A stretch of 46,306 nt of DNA from an uncultured Acidobacteriota bacterium (GTDB lineage: Bacteria > Acidobacteriota > CAIWXX01), in contig CAIWXX010000065.1 in the NCBI GenBank assembly GCA_903916735.1, positions 1 to 46,306 of the forward strand, in the 5' to 3' direction. Shown piece after piece: positions 20,524 through 26,814 of this stretch. Numbering within the stretch: the first letter of the stretch is position 1; the number at the start of each line of letters is the position of its first letter. Made by a program: the position numbers and the translations under genes. The notes beneath the pieces were generated by a model, which saw nothing but the letters and a program-made list of their open reading frames with translations, was not told the origin of the DNA and searched no databases.

Positions 20524-21480
20524 CTAACCTTCCAGGGCGAGAGTGAAGACGCCCATTTGACGGAACTTTGTATACCGCTCTTCGATGAGCTTCGCGGTCT
20601 TTAAGGATTTCAGTTTCTTCAAATTCTGGGCTATCGCTTCGCCGACCGTTGCTCCCATCGATCGAGAATCCGCGTGGGCTCCTCCGGGGGGTTCAGGGAG
20701 AACGCCATCGACGATACCGAGCTTGAGGAGTTTTTCTGATGTGAGGTGGAGTTTATCCGCGGCGGTCTCAGCCATGGATGCGTCTTTCCAGAGAATTGCG
20801 GCACATCCTTCAGGTGAGATAACCGAGTAGATTGCAAATTGGAGCATCAGCACACGATCTCCGACGCCGATCGCCAGCGCTCCGCCGCTGCCGCCTTCCC
20901 CGGTGACGATGACGATAATCGGTACACGAAGCCGGCTCATCTCGCGCAAATTCCGGGCGATCGCTTCCGCCTGACCCCGCTCTTCTGCTTCGATCCCCGG
21001 GAAAGCTCCAGGGGTATCGATTAAGCAGATCAGGGGGCGAGAAAATTTCTCGGCAAATTTCATGACCCTGAGAGCCTTGCGATAACCCTCCGGCTTCGGC
21101 TGTCCGAAGTTACGATACAGACGCTGCTTGACGTCACGGCCTTTCTGATGGCCGATGATGGCTACAGGTTCACCACGAAAGTAGGCCATGCCGGCAACGA
21201 TAGCCGGATCATCCGCAAAGCCGCGATCGCCATGAATTTCGGAAAACCCAGTAAAGAGCATCGAGATGTAATCAAGCGTGTAGGGACGGAAAGAATGACG
21301 GGCCAGTTGAACCACCTGCCAGGGCGACAGATTGGTGAAGATCTGGCTGGCCAGGATGTCATGCTTCCTGATGAGTTCTTCGACCAGCGAATCGGCTTCG
21401 GGTCCGCCGGTGCGAGCAGCGATGATCGCCTTGCGAATCGCGACCAGCTCTTCCTCGAATACCAACCCCTCAAATGCCAT
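20524..21480 (-). CDS. accA: Acetyl-CoA carboxylase carboxyltransferase subunit alpha
   Basis: 318 residues, the usual length. With AccD it transfers the carboxyl group from biotin to acetyl-CoA, giving malonyl-CoA for fatty-acid synthesis. Family marks: LARHSFRPYTLDYI, FTGFSEIHGDRGFADD, VAIIGHQKGRD, NFGQPKPEGYRKALR, and the oxyanion-hole stretch VTGEGGSGGALAIGVGDRVLM followed by YSVISPEGCAAILWKD. Everything needed is present. It stands apart from accD, which is not in this window. Confidence 0.97.
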   Translation of the reverse strand: MAFEGLVFEEELVAIRKAIIAARTGGPEADSLVEELIRKHDILASQIFTNLSPWQVVQLARHSFRPYTLDYISMLFTGFSEIHGDRGFADDPAIVAGMAYFRGEPVAIIGHQKGRDVKQRLYRNFGQPKPEGYRKALRVMKFAEKFSRPLICLIDTPGAFPGIEAEERGQAEAIARNLREMSRLRVPIIVIVTGEGGSGGALAIGVGDRVLMLQFAIYSVISPEGCAAILWKDASMAETAADKLHLTSEKLLKLGIVDGVLPEPPGGAHADSRSMGATVGEAIAQNLKKLKSLKTAKLIEERYTKFRQMGVFTLALEG

Positions 21481-21827: not shown

Positions 21828-22382
21828 TTATTTCTCGGCATCCTGCCCTATGGCTCCTATCTGTCTCCGATAAATGCTCCGGATTTCCCGCAAAATCCCG
21901 ATATACTCCCGACTCTTATAGTCCGGGTAGGTCCAGGGCAATGGACGTGCGCCGCTTTTGGTAAAAAGCAGTTCTTGTTCGAGATAGATGCCGGAGGCTG
22001 CTGGGATGCGATGCTGGAAGTTTTTGGTCGATGCCAGGATGAATGAATGGAGGGTGAGGCAACCGGGATCGAGATTGACTCGACGTCGAACCATCGTGGT
22101 TCGTTCCGCCAGTTCTTCTTCGATCTCATTTGTCGAGACCTTGATGCGCGAAATCTCCACTGGAGCAATCAGATTCTGGAAGGAAACGAACACTCGACGC
22201 AGGCCCGCGCCCATCTCGTTATTGTAGTAATCCGTAAAATGAAAATCCAATGGCAGGCTGAGGTAATCAGCCGGGCCCGCGAGCGACTCAAGCCGCTCGA
22301 TGGCCGCGCATACGACGTCGATGTGACCTCCAAGTACACCGCAAACGAGTTTGACAAAAGCAAATGAACGTATCATCCCCAT
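21828..22382 (-). CDS. DUF4416 family protein
   Basis: About 184 residues. It resembles the uncharacterised DUF4416 family: a short start (IRSFAFVKLVCGVLGG), the FHFTDYYNNEMGAGLRRVFVSFQNLI segment, NLDPGCLTLHSFILASTKNFQHRI, and a C-terminal YPDYKSREYIGILREIRSIYR. Function is unknown; such genes occur in deep-branching anaerobes and have sometimes been described as GTP-binding, which I cannot support from motifs here. Start taken at ATG 22382 (ATG 22376 also possible). It is 88 bases after the DnaE-like gene, same strand. Confidence 0.7.
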   Translation of the reverse strand: MGMIRSFAFVKLVCGVLGGHIDVVCAAIERLESLAGPADYLSLPLDFHFTDYYNNEMGAGLRRVFVSFQNLIAPVEISRIKVSTNEIEEELAERTTMVRRRVNLDPGCLTLHSFILASTKNFQHRIPAASGIYLEQELLFTKSGARPLPWTYPDYKSREYIGILREIRSIYRRQIGAIGQDAEK

Positions 22383-22470
22383 GCTCTGAACTATAGCCAA
22401 GTGAAAAGAAAAAAGGCAAAAAGAAAGCACCTCGATTCAAGCATGGCTCACCCTCGATGTGTTAGGCCTA

Positions 22471-25266
22471 TCAGCTTTGACCATTTGCATGCGTTGATCT
22501 CTTCCGGATTTCAGCTTCCAACCCCTGAGCGTCGCTGCGCTCCAGTTCAAAGAGCTCGCTTTGTCCACTCACACGCTCGCGGCTATGCTTCAGTTCCAGA
22601 AACTGATCCAAATCAAGGAGCAGGAGCGACGGTGCCAACCCCATGCAATCAAAGCATCCGGCCTTGATGAGCGCTTCGAGGCTGTGCTGTGTCAGCTTTC
22701 GATGATCGAATGCAAAGAGGAAATCCGAGAACGACACGAAAGAGCCCGCTTCCGTACGAGCCCGCTGCACCTCCAGAGCGGCTTGTTCGCCAAGTCCCGG
22801 CACCATCACGAACCCCATCTGGATCGCATCACCAACTGGACAGCAACGGATTTCACTCTGGTTGATATCCGGCGGGAGGAGCCCAATCGACAACCGATGG
22901 CACTCGATGAAAAGTGGTTCAAAATCCCCTTCCTCTTCAGCTCGATCCGTCAAGAGGGCCGCCATGAAATGCACCGGATAATGGGCTTTCAGATAGGCAA
23001 TGCGATATGTCTGAAGCGCGGTTGCGGCTTTGGACGCCTTGCTGAGCAGGCGTGGTGCGGCTTCCATCAGCAGATCCCAAAGCAGCGGAACACGACGTGC
23101 CAATACGCGCCCTCGCGCTGCTCGCTTCAGGCGAACAAAAAGCGGGTGAGGAGATCCGTCATCTTCGAGAGCCGGAGGGCCCTCGCCGGCTTCGATGCGT
23201 GCCAGGGCATCCCTGATATCATCAGCCGCTTTCACAACATCCATCCGACGAACGCTCCCGTCGCTAAAACTTTGAAGGATGGCTTCAACCTGTTCATGAA
23301 AAATGATCAGGCCGCCTGTTGGGGCGAGAATTTCTCCGAGCTCCGGCAGGCGTTCCGGTGCGGATTTGCCGCATGCAATGGCGCTCTCAATCGCATGCGC
23401 CGCAGTCGGATCGCGGCTGGCGATCTTGCCGATCGCGATCATCACAATCAGATCGGCGAATGTGCGCGGCACATAGGAGATCGACCGATAGATGGGGAGA
23501 TCCAAGGGAGTCACTCCCACAAGGATTTGTGACTGCAGAAGAGCGAAGGTCGCAGAATCATCTTTGGGCTCCGGAACAGACCGACTCACCCTGCCGATCA
23601 TTCCCAGCTCGCGATTATTACGATGGAAATCAACACGGAGAAATCCGAAACGGTCGAGATCATGTGATCCATAATGAGTCGCCAGTGTCCCATCGGCCAG
23701 ACGGCTCGCCGGCAATAGGTCCACGAGGGGTTGTTGAGACAGAACGACGGAAGATCCATGGGCCGGTGAATAGTGATGAACAAGAGACTCGATTCTCTTC
23801 GCGGCATCGATGACTTTGATCACGCTTTCATCGGCATGTGTTTCCTGCCTCAGGCGCTTCTCCGCTCGATGAACAGGCGTATCAGGCGGCAGAGCGCCCA
23901 ACAGGGATTCCACGATCTCCGGATCAGCCTCCAGCGCCCTCGCGCACTCCCGAATCGCTGTTCGCGGGTGAAACCAGCTGAACTCGATAATGTGCGCCAC
24001 CTGATCAACTCCATATCTCGTCAATAGATGATCCATCAATTCCTGCCGTCGTTCGAAAAAAACCTCGATTGAAAAATGCGCGACACGATGATCGCTCATC
24101 ATGGTTCCATCCAGAGGAAGATCCACTTCGATGGGGTCGATGTCGGAAATCCCCAGGATATACGCGACCAGGCTCGATGGCGCGATCCCCTTAATGGTGC
24201 AGGGAATGCAGCTCGCACCGGCGAACTGCATGAGGTCCCAGGCAAACAGGAAGAGGCCTGCCAGACGGCGTTCGATGATGACATCGAGCTCGGCTTCGAG
24301 CCGCTTGGCATACTCATCAGTTGCTAATCCACGGGCGTTCATGCATGACCGGATCTGGTCAGCCAGCATCGAGTCTTCACTCACCCCCGGGGGTGTGGGG
24401 AATCGAGGTCGCGAGCCGACTGTGGAATCGAGTCTGAAATTGCATTTGTCGGCGATGGCAACGGTCGCCCGTAAGGCTTCTGGAAATTCACTGAAGAGCG
24501 CCGACATCTCTTCATAAGGCCGGAGATAGTAGGTGTCGTGATAATGATTGAAATCGCGAACTGAAGCGAGCGTCCGGCCCTGAGAAATGGCAATCAGGAG
24601 TTCCTGTCGTTCGAAGTCAGACACCCGCGGGAAATGCGTATCGTTCGTCGCGACGATCGGCAAACCGACTCTCCGTGCAATTTCCACAAGACTGGGGAGG
24701 TAGCGCTTCTCTTCGCTTTTCCCATGATCCATGAGCTCAATAAAAAAATTGCCTCGGCCGAAGATGTCGGCATAAACGTCCGTAATCTTGGCTGCCTCTT
24801 CCTTGCGATCGGCGAGCAGCAAGCGGGGAATCTGTCCCCGCAGACAACCGCTCATACCGATCAACCCCTCTGTATGCAGGCGCAGCACATCCAGATCGAT
24901 CGATGGCACGCGGGTTTCATGAAGAATTTTCGCGGAGGAAATGAGCCTGCAGAGATTCCGGTAGCCAGTGGTGTTCTGAACCAGGAGAGGAAGGTGGTAC
25001 AGATTGAACGGTTCATCGTTTGCAGGAGAAAGCACCGGCGGAGTGCTTGTACGCACGTATATCTCGCACCCTAAGATCGGCTTGATGCCGGAAGCCAGCG
25101 CTTTATCGAAGAATGCCGGTGCCGCATGCATGTTGGCGTGATCGGTCAGCGCCAGTGCGGAGAAGCGAAGACGTCGAGCCAATTCGATGAGCTCTTCCGG
25201 TAGCGATGCGCCGTCATGCAGAGAATAGGCCGTATGATTGTGAAGATGCACGAACGGTACTTGCAT
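22471..25266 (-). CDS. DnaE-family protein with intact PHP domain but lost polymerase catalytic residues
   Basis: 931 residues against about 1,100-1,200 for DnaE. The PHP domain (about 1-280) keeps its metal-site pattern: H9-N-H11, D18, LTD42-H43, E68, C141, ELMDH181 and NDTH211. The palm is aligned easily (SLVAYILGISDIDP, FFERRQELMDHLLTRYG), but the GPGRGSAAGS loop reads CTIKGIAPSS and the catalytic PDFDIDF reads AHFSIEV (396-402), so both aspartates are replaced (Ser399, Glu401); only the third, D546 in LRVDF, remains. The RPGPM-type fingers motif is also gone. Helix-hairpin-helix region present (MVPGLGEQAAL); the OB-fold and tau-binding C-terminus are missing. The frame is unbroken, so it is maintained. 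It probably cannot polymerise DNA; a PHP nuclease or phosphatase, or a structural role, is inference. Confidence 0.85.
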   Translation of the reverse strand: MQVPFVHLHNHTAYSLHDGASLPEELIELARRLRFSALALTDHANMHAAPAFFDKALASGIKPILGCEIYVRTSTPPVLSPANDEPFNLYHLPLLVQNTTGYRNLCRLISSAKILHETRVPSIDLDVLRLHTEGLIGMSGCLRGQIPRLLLADRKEEAAKITDVYADIFGRGNFFIELMDHGKSEEKRYLPSLVEIARRVGLPIVATNDTHFPRVSDFERQELLIAISQGRTLASVRDFNHYHDTYYLRPYEEMSALFSEFPEALRATVAIADKCNFRLDSTVGSRPRFPTPPGVSEDSMLADQIRSCMNARGLATDEYAKRLEAELDVIIERRLAGLFLFAWDLMQFAGASCIPCTIKGIAPSSLVAYILGISDIDPIEVDLPLDGTMMSDHRVAHFSIEVFFERRQELMDHLLTRYGVDQVAHIIEFSWFHPRTAIRECARALEADPEIVESLLGALPPDTPVHRAEKRLRQETHADESVIKVIDAAKRIESLVHHYSPAHGSSVVLSQQPLVDLLPASRLADGTLATHYGSHDLDRFGFLRVDFHRNNRELGMIGRVSRSVPEPKDDSATFALLQSQILVGVTPLDLPIYRSISYVPRTFADLIVMIAIGKIASRDPTAAHAIESAIACGKSAPERLPELGEILAPTGGLIIFHEQVEAILQSFSDGSVRRMDVVKAADDIRDALARIEAGEGPPALEDDGSPHPLFVRLKRAARGRVLARRVPLLWDLLMEAAPRLLSKASKAATALQTYRIAYLKAHYPVHFMAALLTDRAEEEGDFEPLFIECHRLSIGLLPPDINQSEIRCCPVGDAIQMGFVMVPGLGEQAALEVQRARTEAGSFVSFSDFLFAFDHRKLTQHSLEALIKAGCFDCMGLAPSLLLLDLDQFLELKHSRERVSGQSELFELERSDAQGLEAEIRKRSTHANGQS

Positions 25267-25992: not shown

Positions 25993-26814
25993 TTACCCAT
26001 GCTCCGGTACCATCACAACATCAAGCACCACATCCTGACCTTCCACAATGCTCACATCCTGCCGGAACGTTTGAAACCCGGGTTTGACAACTTCTATTTT
26101 GTGATTTCCTATTGACAGTCCAACCGTGTTCGAGCCGGCATCCCGGATGACTCCCCAGAAATTGCCGTCGATATAAACCGAAGCGTTCGTCTGGGTGATA
26201 CTCATTCTGAGTCGTCCCTGGCCGGCGATTGCTTGCGGTGTACGAGGTTGTACCTGACTCTCGCTTGTCGTCATTTGTGTCTGTTGCCGATCGTCGTTCT
26301 CGATTTCACTAGTATACGATCCAGGCGGAACGGAATGACCTGGCCCTTGGAATTTGTTCCGTTGCTGCATCCGAGCATCATCTGGCAGCTTGTCATCACC
26401 AGGAATCATTTCCTGTTTGATATGAACATCGGATCCGGGAGCACCGTAGAGGCTGACACTATATGGCGCGAAGCCCGGTTTCCGGAATGTGATCGTATGC
26501 GAACCCGGAGTTATTTTCAGCCGCTGGAAAAAGCCGTCATAATCATCGACGATCCCGGCATAGTATCCATCGACGAATACGGACGCATCCTTCGGCTTCA
26601 CTTCACATCGTACATCCGTATACGGATCGTAGACACCTATCGAACTGTAGAATGGGTACCAGCTGTAGGAGGGTCCGTAATATCCGTAATAATGCGGGTA
26701 GAATCCTCCATGATGAGAGTGACCGCGATAGTGAAACCCAACACCAATGTCCGCCCCCGCATAGGTTGTGCTTGCCAAAAGAGCAACCACGATTAGCCCA
26801 AATATTTTTCTCAT
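25993..26814 (-). CDS. Exported protein with two PEGA domains
   Basis: 273 residues. Signal peptide (MRKIFGLIVVALLASTTYAG). Next comes a Gly/His/Tyr-rich stretch (about 22-60), then PEGA domain 1 (about 68-137: ASVFVDGYYAGIVDD, PGSHTITFRKPGFAPY), a Gln/Ser-rich linker, and PEGA domain 2 (about 200-268: ASVYIDGNFWGVIRD, IGNHKIEVVKPGFQTF). PEGA domains are small beta-sandwich modules of cell-surface and periplasmic proteins; no enzyme activity is known for them. Ribosome-binding site AAAGGAAGGG precedes the ATG. Function open. Confidence 0.85.
   Translation of the reverse strand: MRKIFGLIVVALLASTTYAGADIGVGFHYRGHSHHGGFYPHYYGYYGPSYSWYPFYSSIGVYDPYTDVRCEVKPKDASVFVDGYYAGIVDDYDGFFQRLKITPGSHTITFRKPGFAPYSVSLYGAPGSDVHIKQEMIPGDDKLPDDARMQQRNKFQGPGHSVPPGSYTSEIENDDRQQTQMTTSESQVQPRTPQAIAGQGRLRMSITQTNASVYIDGNFWGVIRDAGSNTVGLSIGNHKIEVVKPGFQTFRQDVSIVEGQDVVLDVVMVPEHG

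Follow-up and report, generated by a model that had tools for sequence, protein, structure and literature searches.

A predicted polymerase-dead DnaE1 with an intact PHP site at the native dnaE1 locus in two genera of Acidobacteriota

The only DnaE1 of an uncultured Acidobacteriota bacterium (genome G000) has, by its sequence, lost the polymerase active site and kept every ligand of its PHP metal site. It is encoded in the 46,306-nucleotide stretch of DNA that we analysed (the window, contig C65), and we refer to this polymerase-dead DnaE1 orthologue as pE1. The gene occupies the native dnaE1 position, and other components of the replication apparatus have changed as well; both observations go beyond an earlier interpretation of the window made without database searches (the sequence-only reading), in which the coordinates, the strand, the 931-codon frame free of stops and the quoted motifs were all exact. 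We lean towards viewing pE1 as the original DnaE1 that no longer synthesises DNA and would work as a clamp-tethered PHP nuclease, synthesis having moved to another enzyme, most likely a family-B polymerase (PolB).

The analysis is based on two genomes, the window genome G000 (5.37 Mb, 98.7 % complete) and G001 (100 % complete), both drafts of 183 and about 350 contigs, respectively. G001 is a groundwater MAG of Acidobacteria (public record JACPPM010000025.1) and the only other sampled genome of the class to which G000 belongs, although from a different genus. Polymerase-dead DnaE1 was recovered in just these two of the 396 Acidobacteriota genomes searched; the next best among the matches listed were about 35-37 % identical, with frames of DnaE1 length. 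Coordinates of the main features are given in Table 1.

Table 1. Features of the pE1 locus (window positions) and the family-B polymerase genes (locus positions, contig in brackets).
Feature	Position	Strand	Basis
pE1, polymerase-dead DnaE1 orthologue, 931 aa	22471..25266	-	ORF, Pfam/NCBIfam and tree (DnaE1 side, 100/100)
PHP domain region, residues 1-290, all nine metal ligands kept	24397..25266	-	Pfam PHP 3.4e-46; alignment with 28 DnaE1
Erased triphosphate-binding loop CTIKGIAPSS, residues 356-365 (DnaE1: GPGRGSAAGS)	24172..24201	-	Alignment
Erased catalytic motif AHFSIEV, residues 396-402 (DnaE1: PDIDIDF)	24061..24081	-	Alignment
D546, third catalytic Asp position, kept in pE1 (Glu in the sister-genus orthologue)	23629..23631	-	Alignment
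Helix-hairpin-helix DNA-binding region, residues 794-877, kept	22636..22887	-	Pfam HHH_6 8.8e-19
Putative clamp-binding motif QSELF, residues 902-906	22549..22563	-	Aligned with the DnaE1 internal clamp motif
DUF4416 gene directly downstream of pE1, between pE1 and accA (40-bp gap to pE1)	21828..22430	-	Pfam
accA, marks the ancestral guaA-dnaE1-accA locus	20524..21480	-	Pfam, locus comparison
PEGA-domain protein upstream of pE1, homologue also upstream in the sister genus	25993..26814	-	Pfam, locus comparison
PolB (G000), archaeal-like family B	L109:9248-11692 (G000:C29)	-	Motif reading
PolB (G001), archaeal-like family B	L110:7057-9492 (G001:C312)	+	Motif reading

Pfam recognises in pE1 only PHP, DNA_pol3_alpha, a weak finger domain and HHH_6, with no X-family polymerase domain. 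The NCBIfam model TIGR00594 matches with 562 bits, which passes its cut-off of 434, and none of the NCBIfam DnaE equivalog models scores above its own cut-off. The protein stops 25 residues past QSELF, and its 931 residues compare with about 1150-1250 in relatives. The absence of the C-terminal OB and tau-binding regions, already noted in the sequence-only reading, was confirmed by length and alignment in both pE1 and its orthologue. From their spacing, pE1 and the DUF4416 gene are probably co-transcribed.

We compared pE1 and the orthologue residue by residue with 28 acidobacterial DnaE1 sequences. At the catalytic positions, where all 28 have D/D/D, pE1 has S399, E401 and D546 (S399 and E401 taking the places of the first two aspartates) and the orthologue has A, E and E, its corresponding region reading RGAHPAVEVS. 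According to an earlier survey (PMC3919608), these aspartates (D401, D403 and D555 in E. coli numbering) are invariant throughout the C family. The GPGRGSAAGS loop, which has become CTIKGIAPSS in pE1, is lost in the orthologue as well. The claim that two of three catalytic aspartates and the triphosphate-binding loop are gone thus stands, and, as judged from the alignment, the polymerase site of pE1 has been erased. All nine PHP ligands (H9, H11, D18, H43, E68, H91, C141, D209 and H211) are retained in pE1, and likewise nine of nine in the orthologue. They form the metal motif HHDHEH[C/H]DH (PMC12926913), and their nine counterparts in M. tuberculosis DnaE1 bind three zinc ions and function in proofreading (PMC5636811). 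The intact PHP site had been noticed from the letters, but the 'DH' listed for it (IELMDHG) is not a ligand, and H91 and C141 had not been listed. Otherwise invariant DnaE1 residues are retained in both proteins at 41 of 51 positions in the PHP domain, 8 of 37 in the fingers and 2 of 9 in palm2, so some invariant PHP residues have changed too, as have many in the (HhH)2 region. The putative clamp motif reads QSELF in pE1 and QSQLF in the orthologue, both aligned with that of DnaE1. Structure prediction of pE1 gave a mean pLDDT of 37.7 and was discarded, so the PHP geometry is taken from the alignment.

The orthologue in G001 has 920 amino acids and is 52 % identical to pE1; a repetition of the pattern at this distance shows that it goes beyond chance. 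The two genes differ at 36, 27 and 65 % of first, second and third codon positions, which means purifying selection on pE1 in every domain, and this bias together with the orthologue rules out a pseudogene. Identity between the two proteins is highest in the PHP domain (61 %) and 43-54 % in the other domains, with palm1 the lowest (43 %). In pairs of normal acidobacterial DnaE1 the PHP domain is less conserved than palm1 in 12 of 13 cases (the exception is G028/G041), so the order of domain conservation in pE1 is the reverse of the normal one. A search for homologues with the same substitutions had been proposed in the sequence-only reading; it led to the G001 protein, and a conservation pattern is present. 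The occurrence in a second genus, the codon-position bias, the preferential retention of the PHP domain and the kept clamp motif support the suggestion that the protein is maintained for something other than polymerisation, whether as a PHP-type nuclease built on the polymerase scaffold or as an accessory protein that binds the clamp or DNA.

A maximum-likelihood tree places pE1 and its orthologue with DnaE1 (100/100); the stem leading to the pair has 2.05 changes per site. They do not belong to DnaE2/ImuC, and the DnaE2 of G000 is a separate gene. Many relatives have guaA and/or accA next to dnaE1; the gene order is guaA-pE1-accA in G001 and pE1-DUF4416-accA in the window. Because of its place in the tree and this ancestral guaA-dnaE1-accA locus, pE1 is the native dnaE1 and not a stray copy.

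No other DnaE1 and no PolC were detected in G000 or G001. PF07733 hits only two genes in G000, pE1 and a DnaE2 on contig C92, and a protein search gave the same picture in G001. A second complete dnaE had been named as something to look for; another DnaE1 was not detected, but this DnaE2 is catalytic. It has an intact catalytic triad (PDIDVDF), the GRGSA loop and a dead PHP site, and is the sole catalytic C-family protein. It lies in a lexA-ImuB-like-dnaE2 operon, in which the ImuB-like gene is of the Y family; in G001 the reading frame that immediately precedes the Y-family gene has a LexA-like end. This setting means that DnaE2 is probably SOS-controlled. A LexA box common to the upstream regions of lexA, the ImuB-like gene and the polymerase genes was sought, with no convincing result. 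The stem of DnaE2 in the tree is long (1.45). Between G000 and G001, DnaE2 is 78 % identical and PolB 75 %, and since the DnaE2 identity is as high as that of PolB, the rate does not single out a replicase. High DnaE2 conservation was also considered as a sign of a replicase, but the pairwise identities of DnaE2 and DnaE1 in relatives are similar, so it is not diagnostic.

In both genomes the polymerase motifs (DFASLYPS and YSDTDS) and the exonuclease motifs (FDIEN and YCLQDT) of PolB are intact, and the protein ends with a putative clamp motif, QLNLF in one genome and QLSLF in the other. Among solved structures, archaeal replicative enzymes of the KOD/Pfu type match it best, along almost the whole protein (about 1e-53), with Pol delta close behind and E. 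coli Pol II at about 2e-24. Within the phylum sample this type of PolB is confined to the class of G000 and G001, the next best proteins in the phylum being 29-31 % identical, and the GC content of the PolB contig matches that of the host in each genome. In a small tree of 15 rows PolB falls outside the G1 (Pol II) clade, its position being otherwise unsettled. Its intact exonuclease motifs do not match the bacterial group G2, where ExoI is not conserved and ExoIII is missing, and its motif C (IVYSDTDS) has no Glu, the mark of group G3, as far as a small tree and a partial reference set allow. A phage or plasmid source was also considered, but the best phage match is 27 % identical and the best plasmid match is archaeal (26.5 %), so no clear source emerged. 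The acidobacterial family f54 (L130, G110:C14) has a different PolB, 29 % identical, alongside a full-length DnaE1.

The clamp loader is also changed. DnaX has 385 and 378 amino acids in the two genomes (L118:5484-6641(+) and L119:414-1550(+)) and comprises domains I-III only, without the tau domains, whereas DnaX frames elsewhere in the phylum, where no contig end truncates them, have 501-813 amino acids. In both genomes dnaX is found in the usual dnaX-ybaB-recR context. As pE1 has no tau-binding region, the contact between tau and alpha is lacking on both its sides. A DnaN is encoded next to dnaA and gyrB. DnaN scores against its family model are 248 and 243 bits (L123:1501-2613(+) and L124:1495-2601(-)), compared with 332 and 307 in two relatives, perhaps reflecting faster evolution of the clamp.

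We detected no family-A polymerase (PF00476) in G000 or G001, the same search being positive in 10 of 10 bacterial controls; the relative G010 has PolA. G000 encodes a stand-alone FEN-like 5'-3' exonuclease of 298 amino acids (G000:C28:80032-80928(-), L233), which ends with QSGLFDDENE and so contains a clamp-like QSGLF. A small DEDDh (DnaQ-like) exonuclease is apparently common to G000 and G001 (L127:1468-2118(-) and L126:1084-2022(+)); an RNase_T match was absent in the two relatives tested, G021 and G059.

In the explanation that we prefer, the (HhH)2 region and the QS[EQ]LF tail would put pE1 on DNA bound by the beta clamp, where its tri-zinc PHP site would trim 3' ends in the 3'-5' direction, either as proofreading in trans or as end cleaning. 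Chain synthesis would be carried out by the archaeal-like PolB, with its own exonuclease and QL[NS]LF motif, and less likely by DnaE2, which would be the SOS enzyme. We infer the nuclease activity and clamp binding of pE1 as well as a role of PolB as the chromosome replicase. PolB is chosen over DnaE2 on the grounds of its motifs, its restriction to this lineage and the lexA operon that contains dnaE2; rates play no part in the choice. A point against this explanation is that a second proofreader would be redundant for PolB, because PolB has its own exonuclease. The changes at some otherwise invariant PHP residues and at many (HhH)2 residues also speak against it. We give about even credence to the broader picture, in which the class would copy its chromosome with an archaeal-type PolB on a bacterial beta clamp, Pol III alpha being dead, Pol I gone and the nuclease parts surviving as the PHP domain and clamp motif of pE1 and as a free-standing 5'-3' exonuclease whose tail resembles a clamp motif.

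DnaE2 might instead be the chromosomal replicase, with pE1 providing PHP proofreading in trans and PolB acting as an accessory repair enzyme. DnaE2 is the only C-family protein here with both the triad and the GRGSA loop, its dead PHP site faces intact ligands in pE1, and its stem is long. However, the operon in which it lies is the usual setting of the SOS mutasome, and PHP loss is the norm for DnaE2, also in bacteria with an intact DnaE1 (PMC12926913), so the complementarity of DnaE2 and pE1 is not specific and was dismissed as a sign of a division of labour. We regard a replicative DnaE2 as unlikely.

In eukaryotic Pol epsilon, the inactive C-terminal half is a polymerase module that stays at the replication fork although it is dead, and pE1 could similarly be a catalytically silent scaffold organising the replisome while bound to clamp and DNA. 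The analogy lies in the retained dead module; Pol epsilon belongs to family B and has no PHP site. Purifying selection also acts on the palm, fingers and HhH of pE1, which is more than a nuclease alone would need, but a pure scaffold would not need nine of nine PHP ligands in both genera or a PHP domain that is the best conserved part. This counterargument is tempered by ligand mutants of M. tuberculosis DnaE1, in which protein stability was lowered as well (PMC5636811), and on balance a scaffold seems quite unlikely. It is very improbable that an intact dnaE1 (and polA) went unbinned in both organisms and that pE1 is a diverged paralogue: both assemblies are drafts, but they are nearly or fully complete, pE1 is at the native locus, the changes in DnaX and PolA agree and are seen in two genera, and a DnaE1-type match was obtained in nearly all of 60 relatives sampled. 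That pE1 still polymerises with a remodelled active site (E401 together with D546 or, in the orthologue, E) is hardly credible. An acidic residue does stand at two of the three catalytic positions in both proteins, but the first aspartate is Ser or Ala, the GRGSA loop has been lost along with most of the invariant residues of the fingers, and the C-family rule on these aspartates (PMC3919608) speaks against it.

With the DnaE1 of Mycobacterium tuberculosis and Thermus, in which the PHP domain is active, pE1 shares descent, the order PHP-palm-thumb-fingers-(HhH)2-clamp motif, the nine PHP ligands and the native locus; it differs in the erased catalytic aspartates, dNTP loop and finger residues and in the absence of the OB and tau-binding domains. 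DnaE2/ImuC, the mutasome polymerase, is a C-family paralogue in the same genomes and the opposite of pE1, with the triad kept and the PHP site dead. Noncanonical prokaryotic PolX proteins are likewise reported to be polymerases without synthesis that keep a PHP nuclease site and act as exonucleases (PMC9226535); they belong to the unrelated family X and are not the ancestral replicase. Given PHP proofreading by M. tuberculosis DnaE1 (PMC5636811) and the PolX exonucleases (PMC9226535), the end state proposed for pE1 has a precedent in another family. For Aenigmarchaeota a replication takeover by a different PolB was also proposed, there replacing the PolD catalytic subunit (PMC7544198); however, these are archaea, and the old catalytic subunit is absent, whereas here the dead protein is kept.

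When more than 3000 complete genomes of bacteria were surveyed, each species was reported to have a DnaE1 or DnaE3 replicase, and in Pol III alpha it is the PHP domain that becomes inactivated (PMC12926913). In an incomplete literature search we found no reports of a polymerase-dead DnaE1 or of bacteria lacking dnaE. The native dnaE1 of two genera breaks the catalytic aspartate rule (PMC3919608), and their genomes appear to break the DnaE1/DnaE3 rule (PMC12926913). By itself pE1 is a retained pseudo-polymerase of a known family, but replication that does without any C-family replicase would be new in kind and, if true, this would be the first bacterium known to lack one. As a natural separation-of-function form of Pol III alpha, pE1 is useful for the study of PHP proofreading. 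Should PolB turn out to copy these chromosomes, the replicase of bacteria would be exchangeable, and what became of the old enzyme, with synthesis lost but the nuclease kept, would show which parts of the replisome are still needed.
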